A DNA stretch of 64,000 nucleotides, from positions 310,001 to 374,000 of the forward strand of contig JAPJBO010000104.1 in the NCBI GenBank assembly GCA_030068145.1. Reading direction: 5' to 3'. The position numbers were made by a program, and so were the translations under genes. The notes beneath the pieces are model-generated. The model was given only the letters and a program-made list of their open reading frames with translations, was not told the DNA's origin and did not search any database. Each line of letters begins with the position of its first letter. Within the stretch, counting starts at the first letter, position 1. This DNA is from Diplonema papillatum. Taxonomy: Eukaryota > Euglenozoa > Diplonemea > Diplonemida > Diplonemidae. Of this stretch, positions 1-25,204 are shown piece after piece.

Positions 1-1839
1 TAATGTGTCTTGTGCTGCTCGGATACTGGTTTGCGTTTCTGCTGTCTTTGTCTTTTTGCACTTGTCACATCTGTAATCTTTGGGGGTGCTTTTCTTGCAG
101 AAACTGTCCAGACATCCTTGAGCGGTGCTGGCCTGTATTGCGAGGATTGTCATGCTGTAGGGTTGATCTTCTGTTTTGATGTAGCCGCAGTTGTTGCAAT
201 GGATTGTTGTCGTCTGTAGGTGTAATAATTCGTTGAAGGCGTCGCTGCAGTTTGGTTGGCACGTGCGGTGTTCTTCGTTTTCGTTCGCTATCGCAGCGAG
301 TAGTTGAAGTAAGGCTTCTTCTAGGTCGTGTTGTTCTCCGTCGCCGAGGTGTGTGCCCATGTGCTCGAAGAGCCTTTGGACGACGTTTTGGGTTTTCCTG
401 CCGCTTATCCATTCGTTCACGTCTTGTGTGCATGGGCCTGTTTGGTGTTGTGGACAGTCGTTGTACTTGCGTATTTGATTTGACAAGTGTGTCGCTGCTA
501 TGAGGTTTAGCGACGCTTGCAGGAAGCAAGAGTTTCTTGTCGTGTATTTGTGAAGTTGCTGTGGGTGTTTCCGCTTCGTTTTGGCTGCTACTGCTGCGGC
601 GATGGTGATGGTTGCAACGAGGCTGGCTACTCGTTCCGTGACGGTTAATTCGGGTGTGGGTTGTGATGGAGAGTCAACGGAGGATGGTGATTCGCTCGGT
701 AAGTGGGCCGGGAAGAAGTTGGTTGGCCTGTGTTTGCCGGCGAACTCCGGTTCGTTGATGCGTGGTTGGCGTTTTTTGTGCCGGGCTACGCAGAATCCAA
801 GGAACGGCTTGAGCTGGCTGTGGAGTCGTGGCAGGTTGCCGAATTCCTCTGTGAGCCATGCGTTCCAGGGTGCGTATAGTACCCGTGGGTTGTGACCTCT
901 GTCGATCATGGCATATACGCTCCTCTGTATTTCTACACGCAGGTCTTGTAGGTGGTTCGTTTGTCGGATTGCTCGTATCAGCGAGCCCTTGAAAATCCCG
1001 CTCGCTTGCGCCTTGGGAGCCGTTGTTAAATGGTGGGTATAGCGGGTCCCGTAGTTTTTCGGTTGTATTGTGAGGCGGATGTGCGGTGCGTGGGGAGGAT
1101 CCGGACGTTCGACGCGTATCCGGACTCCGAGAAATACTACGTCGTCGTGTGCTGTAGTTGTGTTTTTGTACCGCATGTTGTAAAGGTGCTGCGGTGGTGG
1201 TGTGGTCCCGAAGTTGAGGAAGTCGTCGATGAAGCGGTAGGTGTGTGCGTGTGCCTTCGCTTCTTCGATCTTTCCTTCATCTACGAGGCTGTCTACGTAT
1301 GCTTTCTCGATCCGATAGCAGAAAAGGTTTGCTATATCCGAGCTAGCATTACCGCCCATAGGTATGCCGTCGGTCTGCCTGAGTACTTGATCGCCTTGTG
1401 CTATGTAGCTGTTACCGATAATGATTGCAAGTAGTTCTTTGACTGCTTCTCTGGAGTATGCGCGCTTCGTGTCGTTCGTCTGCCGACTGAAGGTGAAGGT
1501 TTTCTTGCCTTTCTGTTTCGCTCCACGTGTTAGGTTAGGGTTGCCGTTCTGTTCTTCGAATTCGAAAGCTTCTTCGATCGCTTCGCATACTTCTTCCACT
1601 ATCTTGTCCTGAGGTAGCCTTGTGTACATGTCCTCGAAGTCGTGTGTAGTTGGGATTTTGTATCGGAGGCGGGTGAGGTTCTGCTTTATGTGCAGGGTGA
1701 TGTCGTCTGGTCCTTCTGTAAACCATACACGTTTGATTCCTGTACGGCGGAAGTTGAGTTCGTCTTTTCGTTTGAGGGCTTTCATCACGCTTTTCAATAG
1801 GCCTGATAGTTGCCGCAGCCAGCGTGCTCGCGTTTTCCG
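1..1839 (-). CDS. Penelope-like reverse transcriptase fused to a USP-type deubiquitinase domain (partial)
   Basis: An uninterrupted minus-strand frame runs from 1839 (in-frame stop at 1840-1842) to the window edge, 613 codons; the first Met codon is at 1783-1785. RT motifs read in order: motif A DFEDMYTRLP (Asp at 1639-1641), motif B GIPMGGNASSDIANLF (from 1368), motif C YRFIDDF (DD at 1222-1227), then VVFLGVRIRV, followed by a thumb-like region. This pattern and the thumb resemble Penelope-like elements. After a Ser/Pro linker (about 600-720) comes a USP Cys box, NSCFLQASLN (Cys at 526-528), a GEQHDLEEALLQLL segment like the USP QQD box, and a zinc ribbon of two CxxC pairs (187-198 and 58-69). 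The USP His box would lie beyond the left edge. RT motifs before A are not visible, so the copy is probably 5'-truncated or begins in another exon. No GIY-YIG endonuclease is seen. Role inferred: retrotransposition, with possible removal of ubiquitin from host or element proteins. Confidence 0.8.
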
Positions 1840-3530: not shown

Positions 3531-5921
3531 TCATCGAACGCGTTCATCCGAACACTCGTTCGCTCCGTTTGCGGGAGAGCCGGACTGCAGGCGGGAGTAG
3601 TACTTCTTGAAGCACTCGAAGTGGTCGAAGGCGTGCCGGATCCAGTTGAAGTTCGTGCCTCTCTTGCCGAGCTCCGCCCATTCTGAGACAGTGTCCGACA
3701 GCTGCCCATCAAAGCTCGCGTGCACAAAGTTCGAGTACACGTTCAGCATGCAAGCAATCGGCACGAACGTGTAGCAGTCGCACAGAAGGTCGGACACTTC
3801 CTTTTCTCGCTGCGTTTCGTCTATCCCCTCACTCAGCCCACCGGCGGTCTCCAGATACGCCGCAATAACACGCCTCAGGAACACGTCGACCTGCTCCATG
3901 TTGAAATCCACTTCGCCATGCGAAATCTGCAGCTCAAGGCTCGAGATCAGCTTCGCAAAGTCGTAGACCGCAAGACTCGGTCCGCTCCACTCGACGTCAA
4001 TCAACGTCACTTTCGTCGGATTCGCGAGGTTGTCGACGATCGCATTGGACAGGTTCAAGTCGAAGTGCGAGTACACCAGCCGAGTGCTCTGCATTGATCG
4101 CAATCCCGCGTGCACTGTCTTCTTCACCGACTCGATGTCAATGTACTGCAGGAACTCTTTGTAGAATCCCGACCATTGCTCACTGCGTGACAGACCCGAC
4201 TTCTCGGTGAAGATCACCGCACGTCGGCGCCAGGTCTCAAGAACCGTGTAGAGAAGAAGGTCGCTCGATGCGGCGGGGCCGAAGTGGTAGTCTACGAGAC
4301 TCTTTTTGAACGACTCGTTGCGCATGACCGCGTGCAGGTCGGCGAGGCTCCTTCCCACGCAGGAGAACATGGCCTCGCAGTCGGTGTCCACGCTCTGCAT
4401 CGCCTTCAGCAACGTGTAGCCACTCACCCATTCTTCGACTCTGCCGAGGTGCCGCTCGCAGCCGTAGTACGAGGCTGTGATGTTCTTGTATATCATCGGG
4501 CCCAGACCGAGGTCTGATAGCTGCCGAGCCGCGTTTCCGACGAAGTTCGCTTCGTCGTGCAACAGCCGGCTTGGCTTTCTCGGGTTGGAGAAAGTAAGCA
4601 CCACCCGCCTGGCGGATACACGAGGGTATTTGGCGTCGGGAATGCTGAGCTTGGCTGTCTGCGGGTTGACAGTCAGCTTCACGTCGACGTCCGAAGGCGA
4701 GACGCCGCCGCTCGCCCAATCTTCGAAGGTCTCCGCGCAATACCGCTTGAGGCCCTCGGTATCCGACATCAGCCCCGCCACGTCTTCGCGGGCTGTTCTG
4801 CGGCCAGCATGGCTGCTGAAAAGCTCGTTCATCCTGTTCAAGAAGCCGTCGACTCCCTTGTACCCGGGGAACACGTTGCAGTCGACGACGAAGTGCTGCT
4901 TGGTGTCCTTGTGGATCAGCAAGTCAAAGCCAAAGAGCTCGATGTTCCACTCGCTCGCGAAGGCCGTCCGCAGCACCGCGACGACGGCGGGGTCTAGGCA
5001 GTCGTCGATGGCGTCGCCTCCGTGCTCCAGCAGCTCCTGGCACGCAACCACCCCCTTCCGCCGGGTGAGCAAATTCGAGTAAAACACGACGTACCCGGGA
5101 CACGCCCCGCCCTCCATCTCAGGGGTGGAAACCGTGACGTATTCGCCTTCCATTTCGCGGGCGAATTCGCGGAGGGAGTCAGGCGTGGGCCGGTCGACGT
5201 TCGGGAGAGACGGCCGCTTTCCGATGAATACGCGGTCTCCGATTACGTACACTTTGTACACGATCCCGTTGTGCGGCACGTAGTGCTCCACCGAGAAGCC
5301 ATCGTTCGAGTGTTCGCTCGACTCCGTGAAGCGGACGAGGCCTGGCAAGTCGAATACAAGCCCCATTCGCTTGCAGTCCGTCGACTTCGGCTTCACGACG
5401 ACGGGGAAGGGAGGCATGCCTTCGAGCTCCGGCGTCGTTCGGCTGTATATGCACCATTGCGGCGCGGCGCAGGGGGGGCGGCCGACGGTGATGAGGCTGG
5501 TGACCACGCAGGTGCGCTCGAGGATTCGGGTCATGGCCTTGCGCGTAGTCAGCTGGATTTCGCAGGCGAGCGGGATCAGATTTCTCTTCTCGAACTCTTC
5601 CTTGTGCTTCTCCGTGAGCTCGGTGTAGTGCCGCTTGCACGCATCGAGAGCCGGGTCTGTGTCCGTGCCCAGTGCCTGGTGCATTTTCGAGACAACGACA
5701 TCCGGCAGCACATCCAGCGCCTCCCACTGGTCGCACAGGTTGCGATGCACGTCCATCGCAGTTATCTCGACCTTCCCCCCCACTCCGCCTTCGCTCGCTT
5801 GGTCCGCCTCCTTCAGCTTCCCGTTGCGGTCGACGGCAAAAACGGTGCACAGCCGCAAGACCGGGGGGCGTCCGAAGTGCCCGACTGTCCTCGCTCCGCC
5901 ATCGGGTGACGCCGCCTGCAT
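3531..5921 (-). CDS. ITPK (inositol polyphosphate kinase) fused to a choline/ethanolamine-kinase-like domain, copy 1
   Basis: An intronless 796-residue frame starts at ATG 5919-5921. Residues about 20-370 match inositol-tetrakisphosphate 1-kinase: FPVVVKP (Lys177), EHYVPHNGIVYKVYV, GKRPSLP (235-240), FGFD (Asp333) and VVDCNVFPGYKGV (Asp347, Asn349). These keep the Asp/Asp/Asn metal ligands of ITPK ATP-grasp enzymes. Residues about 440-770 resemble choline kinases: EEWVSGYTLL, the Brenner-type HFDLNLSN (His619, Asp621, Asn626) and LIDVEWSG (Asp642). The predicted product is a cytosolic bifunctional enzyme phosphorylating an inositol phosphate and a small alcohol such as choline or ethanolamine; the exact substrates are unknown. 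No signal peptide or membrane segment is seen. Being intronless beside a spliced gene suggests retrogene origin, but no poly(A) relic was found. The long plus-strand frame at 5022-5909 is its antisense shadow. Confidence 0.87.
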   Translation of the reverse strand: MQAASPDGGARTVGHFGRPPVLRLCTVFAVDRNGKLKEADQASEGGVGGKVEITAMDVHRNLCDQWEALDVLPDVVVSKMHQALGTDTDPALDACKRHYTELTEKHKEEFEKRNLIPLACEIQLTTRKAMTRILERTCVVTSLITVGRPPCAAPQWCIYSRTTPELEGMPPFPVVVKPKSTDCKRMGLVFDLPGLVRFTESSEHSNDGFSVEHYVPHNGIVYKVYVIGDRVFIGKRPSLPNVDRPTPDSLREFAREMEGEYVTVSTPEMEGGACPGYVVFYSNLLTRRKGVVACQELLEHGGDAIDDCLDPAVVAVLRTAFASEWNIELFGFDLLIHKDTKQHFVVDCNVFPGYKGVDGFLNRMNELFSSHAGRRTAREDVAGLMSDTEGLKRYCAETFEDWASGGVSPSDVDVKLTVNPQTAKLSIPDAKYPRVSARRVVLTFSNPRKPSRLLHDEANFVGNAARQLSDLGLGPMIYKNITASYYGCERHLGRVEEWVSGYTLLKAMQSVDTDCEAMFSCVGRSLADLHAVMRNESFKKSLVDYHFGPAASSDLLLYTVLETWRRRAVIFTEKSGLSRSEQWSGFYKEFLQYIDIESVKKTVHAGLRSMQSTRLVYSHFDLNLSNAIVDNLANPTKVTLIDVEWSGPSLAVYDFAKLISSLELQISHGEVDFNMEQVDVFLRRVIAAYLETAGGLSEGIDETQREKEVSDLLCDCYTFVPIACMLNVYSNFVHASFDGQLSDTVSEWAELGKRGTNFNWIRHAFDHFECFKKYYSRLQSGSPANGANECSDERVR

Positions 5922-11206: not shown

Positions 11207-14200
11207 TTACTCGAGATATCTCAAAACTAGCGAGGACCACCGTGCCGCTAACGGGTCGTCGCACAGGACCTTCACGCGTTTCGCCACGTGCCGGATCGTG
11301 TCTCTTCGTTTCTTTGCAAAGTCCGCGAGCAGTCCCTTCAGTTGTGGCGGGTCGGTGGGGTATGCGTGACGGATGTCGGACACTTCGTTGTGCGTCGCAT
11401 CATCTGCGAGCAGGACGTGTTGCGCGTTGGCCAGCGCCGCGCACCGCTTGCAGGCGATCCGGGTGGCTCGCGGCATCACCGCTCGCCGGATAATCGCTTG
11501 CAAGAGGTCCACGGCGCCGGGCAGTGCTTCGAGGGAGCGGAGCGTACTCCCCTTCGTTGTCTCCGCCGACGCAAGTTCCCGTATGCTCCTCGTCGCCGTC
11601 TTTGTCCGGCTGTACTGCCACACGCGCTTCACGTACCGAATGGGGCTCTCCAGCTGCGGGAAGTCCTCTGCGGCGTAACAGCAAACAGCTCCTACCCCGT
11701 TCTTCCGATACAGGAGCTCAACGTCCAGAACCGGAAGTCTCTCCTGGAGGGCCCGCGTCGCCGCCTCATCTGCGCCGTTGATGTCGGTGTTGTCGGCGTG
11801 TCCCTTACCCCATCGGAGGCACTGCACATACTCGCCGACCACGCCTGCCACGGGGTCACCGGGCTCCTTTCGGCGGATTCGCAGGATGGCCGCTTCGCTG
11901 TCGCTGTACCACGAAACCCTCTCGGGGGCGACATCCCACCGTCTCAGCACGGTTGCCAACAGCATCATTGCCGCCAGTTCGGTCTCCGTGCTCGAGGTCA
12001 CGGTTCCGCTTAGCAGGCAGCCGAAGGACATCGTTCCGAAATTGACTCCGGCGGACCCGCGCGATTCGTCCTCGAGAAAACCCCCATCGCTCGCCACCAC
12101 AACATCATGCGTCAACAAGAATTCCCGGCCCAGCATCACGTCGATCTGCGAGAGTATGTCCTCTCCCACGGCTGTTTGTCGGGGGGGCCTTCGACGGAAG
12201 CCTGCTACAGGGAGGGCGTCCCTTTCTTCGTTGGGTCGGTGAGCCAGGTACGCCCGCGTTCGTTGAAGTGCCGCGTAATGTTCCACGTTCGGGCACGCGA
12301 AGCCGTCCTTGCACCATGCAAATTCCTTAATCCCTCTACTGTGGCGATGCTTCGGGAAGAGACTTGCGTGAGAAGCTACCAGCTTGGGTGCTCTTGGGTC
12401 GAAGCAGGAGGATAGGCAGTGCATGGACAGGGTGGGCAGTACGTGGCTGCGGAAGAAGGCACACTTACGTCTTGTCGAGCGGTAGACGTGGGAGTTGGTG
12501 AAGTCTACCAGGCGTGCCAGCCTTTCCAAGTTCTTCGCGTCATTCTCGCACCCACTCGTTCGTCTGTCCGCGTGCAGGCAGGCACCCAGCAGTTTTGCGC
12601 GGTTCACGGTCTCGCGGTGAGGTTCAGTGCTCCACACGAAGGGAGTCTTCGCCACTACAAGGATCTTGTCTTCAGCCAGCTCCAACCCTTTCGACGCCGA
12701 CCACGATTGGAGCGCCCCAAAAGTAGCTGGGAGGCGTGACCTTGTTGTTCGGGCCACCAGATCATCGACGTACGCCCGGGTCTCTTCCCTCGGGGGGGGC
12801 TCGCAGGTGTACAGTACGAAGAGGAGTACGCTGAGGGGTGAGCCTTGGAGTACGCCTCGCCCCAAGCCGACCGGCGGGGTAAACCCGTCGTAGTGAACAA
12901 TCGTCACCTCCTGGCCCTCGATTACCCTTGCTACTGTCTTCGCCCATTCGGGGCCAAGCAGCCTCTCTACTGTCTGTATCAGCCTTCCGTGCGGAATCGA
13001 GTCGAAGGCGGCCCGGACGTCTACCAGGAGCAGCAAGCGCTCGTCGTCTTCCTCAGAACCCATCTCTGATTCCAGCCACTCCCGTGCATGGAGGACCACC
13101 TGCGCCGCCCCGCTTTGCCTACCGCATCCGAACTGGAACTCGTGCATCAGGACCAATGACTGTACCAACGGTTTCATTTTCAGATACAATGCCGAGTGCT
13201 GCAGTTTTGCAAAGAGAGGCATTATTGCAATTGGCCGGTACCCCCTCGGATCCGACGTTCGCATCGCCTTCCCCTTCCAGAATAAGAAAATCCAAGACAC
13301 TCGCTGTCGCGCCGGTACGCCCTCACGAGTCCATCTGTTGAGCTCAGCTGTCGTTGACTCAAGAGTTCTCTCTGACATTGTTTTTAAAAACTTCGGTGAG
13401 AAGTCAGCTGTTCGAGCAGTGGACCGGATGACAGCTATCGCCGCGCTGACGTCTTCGGCCGACAACGCAATCGGTACGGCGTCGCGGGGCAGGATTATCG
13501 GTGGGTGTAGGGCGTCAGATTGGTATTTGTTCCGGAGGAACGCCGTAAAGACGGCGGGATTCTCCAGCATCGGTGGCTGATAAGGTGATGACAGGTTTGG
13601 AGACTTGTGGTGTTGCCCGGCCGCGTCCAATTTCTTTCGGATCGACCGAATCTCTGCATTTAGGGTCGACTTCAGTTGTGCGCCGGCGCTGCTTCGGAGT
13701 ATAATTCGACGATATAGGGCATCCTGCAGCCTCGCCACCTTCGTGCTTCTGGGTCGAGGGGGTGGGCGAGCACCCGTTTCATCGAGGGCGTCGAGCATCT
13801 GGGAAAAGGTCGCTTGGTCGAGGGTTTGGCGCTTTGTGGGGTACACCATGGCCGGAGGCCTCTTCAGGCTCTTGTCGAAGCGTAGGGACAGAACAGCATG
13901 GTCGCTTCCTCCGGTGAATCGAATGCTGCTCAAGCTCCATCGAGACCTTCTCGGCACGAAAGCTCTGTCCAGCGACGACGTGGCGTTCGACCTCGAAAAA
14001 GTTGTTCGCGACCGCACCAATTCCTGCAGATTCTCCCTCCGCATGCGGCGCTCCACCTGGGGCGTAGTTCGTGGGTTAAAGTCGCCGACAACCGCGAAGT
14101 CGGTCATGCAGTCCCGCGCCCGCTGCGCTATCCAGTCTCCGAGTCGGTCGGTCAGGGAATCGCGTTTGTGGCAAGGGACGTACACACTCACTACCCTTAG

Positions 14201-14740
14201 TGTCTCGCCCGCCACCTGCAGGTCTGCGCTGCACGCACCGTAACCGGTGTAGCACTGAGATACTGTAATCAGGGATTGCTTCTTGATGAGTATCGCCGTC
14301 CGGGCCAGGGGGTGCCCGTCCGCGTAGGGGCAAGTGCCCACCACCACGACAGTCCATCCGGCACGGGTTGCGTATTCGCGGAAGATCGTGGGCTCGCGGC
14401 CAATCTCGTTCACCGCCAGGACATCGGCAGCCGGCAAGCGTGAGAAAAATCTCTCTAAACACATCTTACAGGAGGCATTACACGACAGGAGGATCAAGTG
14501 CCTGTCGAGAGGGAGGAAACGGCGGGCTCTCAGGGGCGGAATGACTAGCGGCGGGTGCGCTTCTTGCGGTCGGAAGGAGTTGGTTGAAGCTGATATCGGG
14601 TGTGTTTGGGAGGAACTGACTGATGATTCGGGAGGTATGGAAAGGGAGGGATTGACTGATGCGGCTGATAAGCAGTTGTTGGGGTTGCTTGTCACTGACT
14701 CGTTCACCGTGGCTAATATGAGCCGTCCTCGGGGTCGACC
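11207..14740 (-). CDS. LINE ORF2: APE-type endonuclease, reverse transcriptase, RNase H
   Basis: The frame is open from the stop at 14741-14743 to 11207. Counting from a GTG at 14705-14707, it encodes 1166 residues. Endonuclease (about 70-275): VNEIG (Glu101), VVGDFN (208-211), SSLDRAF and GGSDH (268-270). RT (about 470-690): RGYRPIAIMP, LLLVDVRAAFDS (Asp563), GVLQGSPLS (618-626), AYVDD (646-649). RNase H (about 868-985): VASDGG (Asp874), ETELAA, YSDSEA (Asp936), NGADEAA. A C-terminal CKRC plus His segment resembles the zinc-knuckle remnant of many LINEs. All catalytic motifs look intact. No ATG precedes the endonuclease, so translation probably follows ORF1 by frameshift or reinitiation. Confidence 0.92.
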   Translation of the reverse strand, partial: GRPRGRLILATVNESVTSNPNNCLSAASVNPSLSIPPESSVSSSQTHPISASTNSFRPQEAHPPLVIPPLRARRFLPLDRHLILLSCNASCKMCLERFFSRLPAADVLAVNEIGREPTIFREYATRAGWTVVVVGTCPYADGHPLARTAILIKKQSLITVSQCYTGYGACSADLQVAGETLRVVSVYVPCHKRDSLTDRLGDWIAQRARDCMTDFAVVGDFNPRTTPQVERRMRRENLQELVRSRTTFSRSNATSSLDRAFVPRRSRWSLSSIRFTGGSDHAVLSLRFDKSLKRPPAMVYPTKRQTLDQATFSQMLDALDETGARPPPRPRSTKVARLQDALYRRIILRSSAGAQLKSTLNAEIRSIRKKLDAAGQHHKSPNLSSPYQPPMLENPAVFTAFLRNKYQSDALHPPIILPRDAVPIALSAEDVSAAIAVIRSTARTADFSPKFLKTMSERTLESTTAELNRWTREGVPARQRVSWIFLFWKGKAMRTSDPRGYRPIAIMPLFAKLQHSALYLKMKPLVQSLVLMHEFQFGCGRQSGAAQVVLHAREWLESEMGSEEDDERLLLLVDVRAAFDSIPHGRLIQTVERLLGPEWAKTVARVIEGQEVTIVHYDGFTPPVGLGRGVLQGSPLSVLLFVLYTCEPPPREETRAYVDDLVARTTRSRLPATFGALQSWSASKGLELAEDKILVVAKTPFVWSTEPHRETVNRAKLLGACLHADRRTSGCENDAKNLERLARLVDFTNSHVYRSTRRKCAFFRSHVLPTLSMHCLSSCFDPRAPKLVASHASLFPKHRHSRGIKEFAWCKDGFACPNVEHYAALQRTRAYLAHRPNEERDALPVAGFRRRPPRQTAVGEDILSQIDVMLGREFLLTHDVVVASDGGFLEDESRGSAGVNFGTMSFGCLLSGTVTSSTETELAAMMLLATVLRRWDVAPERVSWYSDSEAAILRIRRKEPGDPVAGVVGEYVQCLRWGKGHADNTDINGADEAATRALQERLPVLDVELLYRKNGVGAVCCYAAEDFPQLESPIRYVKRVWQYSRTKTATRSIRELASAETTKGSTLRSLEALPGAVDLLQAIIRRAVMPRATRIACKRCAALANAQHVLLADDATHNEVSDIRHAYPTDPPQLKGLLADFAKKRRDTIRHVAKRVKVLCDDPLAARWSSLVLRYLE

Positions 14741-22297: not shown

Positions 22298-24688
22298 TCA
22301 ACTGGATCCGCCCTTGATGCCGTTCAACATGCGCGAGCCGCTGAGATCCGGCGAGAGAGCCTGCAGGCGGGAATAGTACTTCTTGAAGCACGCAAAGTGG
22401 TCGAAGGCGTGCCGGATCCAGTTGAAGTTCGTGCCCCTCTTGCCGAGCTCCGTCCCTTCCGAGACGGTGCCCGACAGCTGCCCGTCGAAATTCGCGTGCA
22501 CAAAGTTCGAGTACACGTTCAGCATGCAAGCAATCGGCACGAACGTGTAGCAGTCGCACAAAAAGTCGGACACTTCCTTCTCCCGCTGCTCTTCGTTGAC
22601 GCCCTCACTAAGCACGCCGGTGGTCTCAAGATACGCCACAATCACACGCCTCAGGAACACATCTACCTGCTCCATGTTGAGGTCTACTTCGCCACGCGAA
22701 ATCTGCAGCTCAAGGCTCGAGATCAGCTTCGCAAAGTCGTAAACTGCAAGACTCGGTCCGCACCACTCGACGTCAATCAGCGTCACTTTCGTCGGATTCG
22801 CGAGGTTGTCGACAATCGCGTTGGACAGGTTCACGTCGAAGTGCGAGTACACGAACCGGGTGCTCTGCTTCGATTGCAACGCAGCGTGCACTGTCTTCTT
22901 CACAGACTCGATGTCGACGTACTGCAGGAATTCTTTGTAGAATCCCGACCATTGGGTACTGCGTGACAGCCCCGACTTCTCGGTGGAGATCACCGCACAC
23001 CGACGCCAGATCTCAAGCAGCGTGTAGCAGAGAGGCGGGCCGTCGGGCATGATCGAGCCGAAGTGGTAGTCGATGATGCTCTTTTTGAACGACTCGTTGT
23101 GCATCAGCGAGTGGAACTTCGCGAGGCTCCGCCCCAAGCACGAGAACATCACGTCGCAGTTCGATTCCGTCTTCTTCAACGCCTTCAGCAGCGTGTAGCC
23201 GGTGACCCATTCTTCGATCCTGCCAAGATACCGCTCGCAGCCGTAGTAAGACGCGTTGATGTCGTTGTATTGGAACGGGCCCAGGCCAACGTCAGACAAT
23301 CGTTTCGACACGTTGCCAATGAAGTTGACTTCGTCGTGGATGGTGCGCTTCGGCTTCTCCCAGTTGTAGAACGCGACAAGCGCCCTGCGGAGGGTTACGT
23401 CCGGTCTCTTGTCCTTGAGGAGCTTCACCTTGAAGATCCGGCTGTCCACCATGCGGGTCACAGCGATGTCCGCCAGGCAGACGTCTTTGTCGGACCACTC
23501 CTTCAGCGACTGCACGCAGAAGTTTTTCACGTTGTCGTCGCTGCTGTTCAACCGCGAGATGTCCTCTTTCAGCCCCCTGCGAATGCCATGGCGGATGAAC
23601 AGCTTGTTGAGATGCACCATGCAGTCGTCGACGCCCTTGTACCCCGGGAAGACGTTGCAGTCGATTATGTAGTGCTGCCGCGTGTCTTTTCGGACGAGAA
23701 CGTCGAACCCAAACAGCTCAACATCCCACTCGTGCTCTATCGCGAGCTTCAGCACCGTCACGATCGAAGAGTCCAGCACGTCGTCGATGGCGCTCGTCTT
23801 CCCTTCCTGCAGCCGCTGGCAGCCGACAACCCCCTCGCGGTTGGTGATGACGTCCGAGTAGAAGACAACGTACCCGTGCCCACTGGAGCCGACCTCGCCC
23901 GCGGGGACGTGCTCCCCCTTCAGCTCGGTCGCGAGGGCGGCGAGGTTTTCGGGGGAAGGGGCGCCGACGTCCGGCAAAGACGGCCGTTTGCCGACGAAAA
24001 TGCGCTGCGCGACGACGTACACTTTGTACACAACGCCGCCGTGGGGGACGTACTGCTCGATGGAGAACTCGTCGTTGGGGTACGCGGCGCTGCTCGTGAG
24101 GTGGAGCAGCCCGGGGAGGTCAAACACGAGGGCCATCCGCCGGCCGGAGACGATATTCGGCTTCACGACGACGGGGAACGGCGGGAGGCGGGCGGTATCC
24201 GGCGACTTCCTGTTGAATGTGCACCACGGGGCGGTCGAGCACGCCGGGGCGCGGACGTTGATGAGGGTCGTGACGGCGGTAATCCGCTCGAGGAACGTCG
24301 TCATGCTGTTTCGGTTCGACAGCTCGAGTTCGCACGCGAACGGGATGATGTTCCGCTCTTGGTACTCGGCGGCGTGCTTGTCCATAAATTCGTGGTACCG
24401 CCGCATCGTCGCTTCGTGCACGGGGTCCTCTGCGGCCGCCAGCGCCTTGTGCAGCAGAGACACGCACACGTCCGGGCACGCGGGCAACGCCTCCCACTGC
24501 TGGGAGAGGTCCTTTTCGACGTCGAACGCCAGGATGTCCACCTTGCCCTCCAGCTTCGTCCCCTCCTGACTGTCCCGGTAGGCCTGCAGCTTCACGCTGC
24601 GCTTGCGGTCGGGCACTGAAAACACCGTGCAGAGGTGCAGGTTGCGCGTCCGCCCAAAGTCAGCCGAAAAGCAACGGTCGGAAGACAT
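22298..24688 (-). CDS. ITPK fused to a choline/ethanolamine-kinase-like domain, copy 2
   Basis: From ATG 24686-24688 the frame gives 796 residues, exactly the length of the paralogue at 3531-5921; a longer reading would need a TTG start at 24748. The ITPK signature is intact: PPFPVVVKP, EQYVPHGGVVYKVYVV, GKRPSLPDVG, LFGFDVLV and IIDCNVFPGYKGVDD. The second domain has EEWVTGYTLL, VYSHFDVNLSN and LIDVEWCG. The ITPK half differs from copy 1 at roughly half of the residues, whereas the last 220 or so residues are about 90% identical, with near-identical DNA. It is intronless. The 518-codon plus-strand frame at 23063-24619 is an antisense shadow produced by strong codon bias. Confidence 0.87.
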   Translation of the reverse strand: MSSDRCFSADFGRTRNLHLCTVFSVPDRKRSVKLQAYRDSQEGTKLEGKVDILAFDVEKDLSQQWEALPACPDVCVSLLHKALAAAEDPVHEATMRRYHEFMDKHAAEYQERNIIPFACELELSNRNSMTTFLERITAVTTLINVRAPACSTAPWCTFNRKSPDTARLPPFPVVVKPNIVSGRRMALVFDLPGLLHLTSSAAYPNDEFSIEQYVPHGGVVYKVYVVAQRIFVGKRPSLPDVGAPSPENLAALATELKGEHVPAGEVGSSGHGYVVFYSDVITNREGVVGCQRLQEGKTSAIDDVLDSSIVTVLKLAIEHEWDVELFGFDVLVRKDTRQHYIIDCNVFPGYKGVDDCMVHLNKLFIRHGIRRGLKEDISRLNSSDDNVKNFCVQSLKEWSDKDVCLADIAVTRMVDSRIFKVKLLKDKRPDVTLRRALVAFYNWEKPKRTIHDEVNFIGNVSKRLSDVGLGPFQYNDINASYYGCERYLGRIEEWVTGYTLLKALKKTESNCDVMFSCLGRSLAKFHSLMHNESFKKSIIDYHFGSIMPDGPPLCYTLLEIWRRCAVISTEKSGLSRSTQWSGFYKEFLQYVDIESVKKTVHAALQSKQSTRFVYSHFDVNLSNAIVDNLANPTKVTLIDVEWCGPSLAVYDFAKLISSLELQISRGEVDLNMEQVDVFLRRVIVAYLETTGVLSEGVNEEQREKEVSDFLCDCYTFVPIACMLNVYSNFVHANFDGQLSGTVSEGTELGKRGTNFNWIRHAFDHFACFKKYYSRLQALSPDLSGSRMLNGIKGGSS

Positions 24689-25204
24689 CGTCGCGTCGGA
24701 CTCGCTGGTCTCTCTTATTATTTTGTGCGTTGCCGGTGCTGACGACAACTAAAAACCCCGACGGGGGAAAAACTTAGTTTAGCGGGGGATGCTGGTTTCA
24801 AGGGGGTGGTCGGTCGGGGACAGCAACAACAGCACCTTTTTATGTTCGGTCTTCCTTGGGGGTAGTGTCTCTCACTTCCTCAAGGAAATGCGAGATGCGG
24901 GCACCCTCTCCACAACGGGGTTGTTCTTTTCTTTTTGTGTTTGCTTTTCTTCGTCTCCTTTCCGAGTTTACTTTCGGTTTCTGCGGGGCAAGTGGCAGAA
25001 GGGGCGCGCGGTGATGAACGTGCTTGGAATGAAATATATGCTCGACACCGTGTCCTATCTGCACCAGGGCTAAAAAGAAGGTCTGTGTGTGTGTGTGTGT
25101 GTGTGTGATGCCTCGTGTGTTGGTTCCTTCCCCTTTTTTCACCCTGTGTGTGTGTAGATTCAGCAGTGAAGGGTGAAAGGTGTTTCCGGCGAAAGGTGTA
25201 AATA
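24689..25204. other. Spacer upstream of ITPK fusion copy 2
   Basis: Contains a fragment of repeat A (25018-25070: GAACGTGCTTGGAATGAAAT) and a GT12 microsatellite (25085-25108). The gene's promoter should be here, but no motif is evident. Confidence 0.5.

Follow-up and report, generated by a model that had tools for sequence, protein, structure and literature searches.

Can a reverse transcriptase (RT) and a deubiquitinase (DUB) share one protein in a retroelement, and what would the DUB do there? The question arises at the left end of the window, i.e. the 64-kb stretch of Diplonema papillatum DNA analysed here, which is part of the 271-Mb assembly that served as the genome searched. In keeping with a diplonemid source, the spliced-leader exon of diplonemids matched this assembly exactly 517 times and its reversed control never. 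A preliminary description had proposed that a minus-strand frame at this end joins a Penelope-type RT to a USP deubiquitinase, which might protect the element's RNP or replace a missing GIY-YIG module.

The open frame at the window edge

The minus-strand frame is 848 aa long from stop to stop. Its in-window part comprises 613 codons (positions 1 to 1839), and it ends about 0.7 kb beyond the left edge. In order, the frame holds the second half of an RT, a linker, a complete USP domain and two zinc fingers. The RT motifs DFEDMYTRLP, GIPMGGNAS and FIDD and the USP landmarks of the preliminary description were all recovered in place in this single frame.

The RT half spans positions 820 to 1811 (minus strand) as judged by alignment with families F1 and F2 and with the full-length copy L036, which are introduced below. 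Motif A (HDFEDMYTRLP) lies at 1612 to 1644, motif B (GIPMGGNAS) at 1342 to 1368, as placed by motif comparison across families, and motif C (YRFIDDF) at 1219 to 1239. The Asp of motif A, both Asp of motif C and the Gly of motif B were identical in all eight rows compared (F1 to F7 and F1b, an F1 relative in L025). Profile matches were weak. RVT_1 gave E-values of 0.018 for the window part and 0.031 for the whole frame, the group II intron RT model matched the element RT weakly, all of these below the cut-off, and searches of the RT profiles A2 and A4 against the PDB matched no RT relative. The domain is identified as an RT, on sequence grounds, by motifs kept across seven families together with the sub-cut-off matches to the group II intron RT model. 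We take these motifs to be typical of Penelope-like elements (PLEs). The earlier assignment to the Penelope type is thus supported by motifs and by the element anatomy described below, a tree not being its basis.

The in-window part of the USP domain (UCH, Peptidase C19) covers positions 1 to 552 of the minus strand. Its Cys box NSCFLQ was located at 517 to 534, the QQD-like box GEQHDLEEAL at 310 to 339, and the two CxxC pairs of the zinc ribbon at 184 to 198 (CNNCG) and 58 to 69 (CDKC). On the whole 848-aa frame the UCH profile matched residues 434 to 703 with E = 2.2e-14 over profile positions 6 to 254 of 254, while the in-window part alone gave E = 0.023, below the cut-off. Because of this difference the USP call could not be secured from the window alone. 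The His box, which had been predicted to appear on leftward extension, was found as ENAGHYTIHK about 220 residues past the Cys box; together with the end of the domain it lies left of the window. Of the two profile searches proposed for the halves of the protein, the one for the USP was significant on the whole frame and the one for the RT was not.

Comparison with the genome revealed how the window copy relates to a complete element. Over 3193 bases, from position 1811 to a point about 1.38 kb beyond the left edge, it is 99.97% identical to L036; the in-window part of the copy is therefore 1 to 1811, minus strand. The frame does open at 1839, as the preliminary description had it, but homology to the element starts at 1811. 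The frame of L036 measures 2210 aa and consists of a long repetitive N-terminal part, a GIY-YIG domain at residues 858 to 947 (E = 2e-5, over the cut-off), the RT, the UCH domain at 1796 to 2065 and two zinc fingers. By alignment the window copy is a 5'-truncated fragment that lacks the first half of the RT and the GIY-YIG nuclease, the nuclease having been lost through truncation. Since the copy is merely truncated and the nuclease is present in the full-length frame, the USP is no replacement for a lost endonuclease. This suggestion is ruled out by GIY-YIG occurring in the same frame across families, six others besides F3.

Some other features were noted in passing. By eye, the N-terminal part of the L036 frame (L036 1401 to 3900) contains many imperfect TYEPQPY-like repeats. 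The window also carries, on the minus strand at 3531 to 5921 and 22298 to 24748, two paralogous genes for an inositol 1,3,4-trisphosphate 5/6-kinase fused to a choline/ethanolamine kinase domain, and at 11207 to 14707, minus strand, a 1166-aa frame with RVT_1 (8.6e-14), a second retroelement that appears LINE-like by eye.

Families, catalytic residues and selection

A genome-wide search with the 848-aa protein scored the best 53 of 2075 candidate copies. In agreement with the expectation that other copies carry the second domain, 32 of the 53 (window copy included) were free of stops over residues 10 to 848 or more, and in 13 the frame measured exactly 2210 aa. The 149 listed UCH matches, host USPs among them, include at least 13 frames of 1562 aa and at least 12 of 1585 aa. 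Only the best candidates are scored in these searches; the copy counts are therefore minimum values, and DUB-less families may have been overlooked. Families were picked by GIY-YIG matches and frame length. Eight were sampled, six with RT-USP (F1 to F5, F8) and two with RT-OTU (F6, F7), where the OTU likewise follows the RT. F1 (1562 aa), F2 (1585 aa) and F3 (2210 aa, the family of the window copy) were read whole. F4, F5, F6 and F7 came from the genome search for GIY-YIG with frames of 1448, 1513, 1457 and 1544 aa, of which 1380, 1383, 1341 and 1384 aa were read. In F8 (1417 aa) only the last part was read; GIY-YIG and RT were taken from search rows, and the USP with its same boxes was identified by eye.

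In the RT frame GIY-YIG scored over the Pfam cut-off in F1, F3, F4, F5, F6 and F7, and F2 reached 22.4 bits against a cut-off of 22.6. UCH E-values, all over the cut-off, were 5.7e-23, 1.5e-20, 8.8e-14, 3.4e-18 and 2.5e-15 for F1 to F5. OTU (PF02338) passed the cut-off in F6 (1.6e-5) and F7 (9.2e-9), and at six of six places with 1544-aa frames the OTU row lay 3069 bases from the GIY-YIG row. A zinc finger of the form C-x2-C ... H-x4-C follows the DUB in F1, F2, F3 (two) and F6; in F7 it is degenerate with the H-x4-C end retained, and F4, F5 and F8 stop directly after the USP. Thus the same two neighbours, RT and zinc finger, flank the USP in F1 to F3 and the OTU in F6 and F7. The predicted order within a single protein is GIY-YIG endonuclease, RT, DUB and then, in most families, a zinc finger. 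The early claim of an in-frame RT-USP fusion is borne out by the UCH match on the extended frame and by the many copies that keep it. OTU domains were also seen in other repeat families of this genome (e.g. G000:C957, C1760, C2450, C1524, C1898) with frames of 1876 to 2130 aa. For those of 1972 and 1876 aa, contig edges put the OTU near the N-terminus, and copies of the former lie about 7.55 kb apart on the same strand.

The Tyr, Tyr, Arg and Glu of GIY-YIG were identical in all seven rows that extend to the N-terminal region. The Cys, His and QHD-box Asp of the USP were kept in all six element rows (F1, F1b, F2 to F5); the third catalytic residue is Asp, in F3 Asn. F3 shows Asn, Asn where most USPs compared show Asp, Asp, and its Cys box has diverged. 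Its zinc ribbon has two CxxC pairs, F1 and F2 have the first pair with CDC at the second place, and the CxxC pairs of F4 and F5 are out of register in the alignment. Both OTU frames contain a G-N-C-L-F box, preceded by D in F6 (D-G-N-C) and by N in F7 (N-G-N-C), the usual form being D-G-N-C. We conclude that the domain after the RT is a predicted deubiquitinase whose catalytic residues the compared families possess.

Selection was estimated as dN/dS by NG86 for three USP family pairs. For F1-F2, F4-F5 and F1-F1b the USP yielded 0.15, 0.14 and 0.19 and the linker 0.50, 0.32 and 0.43, while the RT yielded 0.06 to 0.08 in the same pairs, i.e. evolution is faster in the USP than in the RT. These ratios are to be read with a dS of about 1.2 to 2.5 (saturated) in F1-F2 and F4-F5; only F1-F1b (0.54 to 0.66) is unsaturated. 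The USP is under purifying selection in sister families of F3. The selection proposed earlier for the Cys-box codon across copies was seen for the domain as a whole and in sister families only. For the OTU of F6-F7 a pN/pS of 0.51 (0.42 to 0.66) was not clearly separate from the linker (0.65) and the tail (0.66), and dS was saturated.

RT identities were 79% for F1-F2, 78% for F4-F5 and 63% for F6-F7, and 33 to 43% between groups. An unrooted RT tree of eight rows showed three groups with good support, and F3 besides, the OTU being confined to one group and the order between groups unsettled. Compared with eight host USPs, the element USPs fell on one side of a branch with support of 72/87, which is too low to show a single USP capture. 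Between groups the USPs are 20 to 24% identical, and their best solved relatives differ: USP36 and then USP12 for F1, USP15 (above the SAGA-type Ubp8) for F3 and USP21 for F4. On account of this low identity and the differing relatives, the USPs may have been captured separately. For the F7 OTU the best solved relative was OTUD3 (3.8e-6). An RVT_1 search of the same genome did not recover the element families among 150 scored matches, as judged by frame lengths. Searches for relatives gave 2 and 22 pattern matches in viral contigs and 75 in prokaryote genomes, none of which was confirmed.

Element ends and insertion sites

Copies within families are nearly identical. Five F1 copies were 99.76 to 99.97% identical to L010 and four F2 copies 99.83 to 99.93% identical to L015; an older F2-like copy, L022, had 95.7%. 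Among F1 and F2 copies the matches start at varying 5' places and converge on a common 3' end, which passes into a C tract. One and the same host repeat harbors copies of F1 (L010/L029) and F2 (L019) in its C tract; the 5' junctions of L011 and L013 likewise show C runs, those of L018 and the window copy none. Two F3 copies compared had the common end TAACGCTAA and no C run. The F1 copy L029 is preceded by about 400 bases from the 3' end of the element itself, and L030 likewise, with an interruption. In the 5' region, off-diagonal matches revealed repeats of about 220 bases. At C510 three successive F4 frames share one strand with a spacing of 5726 bases, and at C2819 and C61 those of F5 are spaced by 5850 bases on the same strand.

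Truncation at varying 5' points, a constant 3' end and copies arranged head to tail fit a Penelope-like retroelement, and the marks of truncation, 3' end, C run and tandem arrangement fit target-primed reverse transcription; PLEs are known to occur in tandem and in partial tandem (PMC11167929). The 3' C run of the element and the C-tract target make pairing between tail and target possible. Rfam scans of 14 loci at E up to 0.5 (6 loci) and 1 (8 loci) detected no hammerhead ribozyme, and a scan for the core pattern found unconvincing sites only. A hammerhead may not be present in every PLE clade, and we therefore call the element Penelope-like rather than a settled member.

The Rfam scans also placed pieces of LSU rRNA near elements, at L012 9036 to 9115 and at L034 4375 to 4488 and 4595 to 4714. 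Scattered 28S pieces, about 3600 in number, are described in the Diplonema papillatum genome paper (PMC10161547).

Role of the deubiquitinase and comparison with known elements

With moderate confidence we favor the view that the copy in the window is truncated and belongs to a young, multi-family Penelope-like lineage with an N-terminal endonuclease, in which the DUB serves the element's complex or its target site. In such an element GIY-YIG would nick the target and the RT would copy the element RNA from the nick. The DUB would strip ubiquitin either from the protein-RNA complex of the element itself or from target-site proteins, which would spare the complex degradation or ease integration. 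Such protection of the RNP, also suggested in the preliminary description, is possible. USP and OTU are unrelated folds, and their presence at the same place suggests that selection keeps ubiquitin removal rather than one fold or cleavage site. A further-reaching version, which we put forward tentatively and at somewhat less than even chances, is that the whole lineage needs deubiquitination for mobility. A DUB would have been gained and later swapped for a non-homologous one while endonuclease, RT and zinc finger stayed, and ubiquitin would be a checkpoint of retrotransposition.

The DUB might instead act mainly on host proteins off the element complex, e.g. histones or silencing and repair factors, and thereby counter host control. 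We regard this as unlikely, yet it deserves the most serious consideration among the alternatives. The solved USPs matched include the SAGA-type Ubp8 (F3) and USP21 (F4), both of which act on histones; but USP15 outranks Ubp8, and matches this weak are no predictor of substrates. Retrotransposons elsewhere took up host enzymes, namely DNA methyltransferases (PMC5890265). That the DUB is covalently joined to the element protein argues for a target in the vicinity of the element's complex. This alternative overlaps with the favored explanation, and sequences alone do not part the two.

A cysteine protease at the C-terminal end of long single proteins (1380 to 2210 aa read) could also be imagined to process the protein into endonuclease, RT and zinc-finger parts. 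Self-processing appears improbable, however, given that the same position is taken by either of two unrelated DUB folds, that Pfam scans found no ubiquitin-like domain and that none of the eight frames contains an LRGG-like ubiquitin tail, which rules out processing at such sites. In addition, PLEs normally act as one protein (PMC11167929). The faster evolution of the USP relative to the RT and the diverged Cys box of F3 would be expected of a ubiquitin-binding or structural relic that is carried along without catalysis; this is very unlikely in view of the catalytic Cys and His kept in all six element rows and the low dN/dS of the USP. The chance that the fusion is an artefact of assembly or annotation, for which we found no supporting point, is negligible. 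It recurs nearly identically in many copies on different contigs, which rules out a chance frame or an assembly join, and is common to families with RTs as distant as those of the different groups.

If the placement holds, Penelope-like elements are present in a diplonemid. The parts of the Diplonema papillatum genome paper available to us name LINE-1, SLACS, R2 and jockey-like RTs and some DNA transposons, and its main text contains none of the words Penelope, GIY-YIG, deubiquitin or ubiquitin (PMC10161547). In the accessible text of a survey of trypanosomatid elements, Penelope is mentioned a single time, in the introduction (PMC12278014). Our literature search found no report of an RT-USP fusion, though an earlier mention in the literature on permuted PLEs or in Repbase is possible. 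With related retroelement families bearing USP or OTU at one position, and with recent, near-identical open copies, all in one genome, a direct test of the need for deubiquitination in mobility is feasible.

Among known PLEs, Craig et al. (2021) are said to have reported elements with permuted domains. An N-terminal nuclease, as in the element described here, is the arrangement of the Chlamys-type clade. The Chlamys group in Ectocarpus, as far as the available part of its description goes, resembles our families in having GIY-YIG and RT in one frame and partial tandem or tandem copies (PMC12477816). The elements here differ by the USP or OTU after the RT, by no hammerhead having been found and by an RT known by motif, not by tree. 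Canonical Penelope/Poseidon elements share GIY-YIG and RT in one protein and head-to-tail copies forming pLTRs, but have a C-terminal nuclease and a hammerhead ribozyme, and no DUB is mentioned in the portion of that account considered here (PMC11167929).

Outside the PLEs, retrotransposons with DNA methyltransferases are alike in that a host enzyme was gained in the coding region more than once, an enzyme that acts on DNA, however, and not on ubiquitin (PMC5890265, accessible text). The remaining parallels come from PMC2836005. A Trichomonas transposase_11 protein with Peptidase C19 likewise combines C19 with a mobile element, yet encodes a DNA transposase and not an RT. Ginger1 DNA transposons, whose C-terminus bears OTU or Ulp1, also carry a ubiquitin-type protease in a mobile-element protein and have two proteases alternating; they differ in having a DNA transposase instead of an RT and in alternating OTU with Ulp1 and not with USP. 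Ubiquitin-type proteases are known from DNA transposons, and an involvement of the ubiquitin pathway in transposition has been put forward (PMC2836005).
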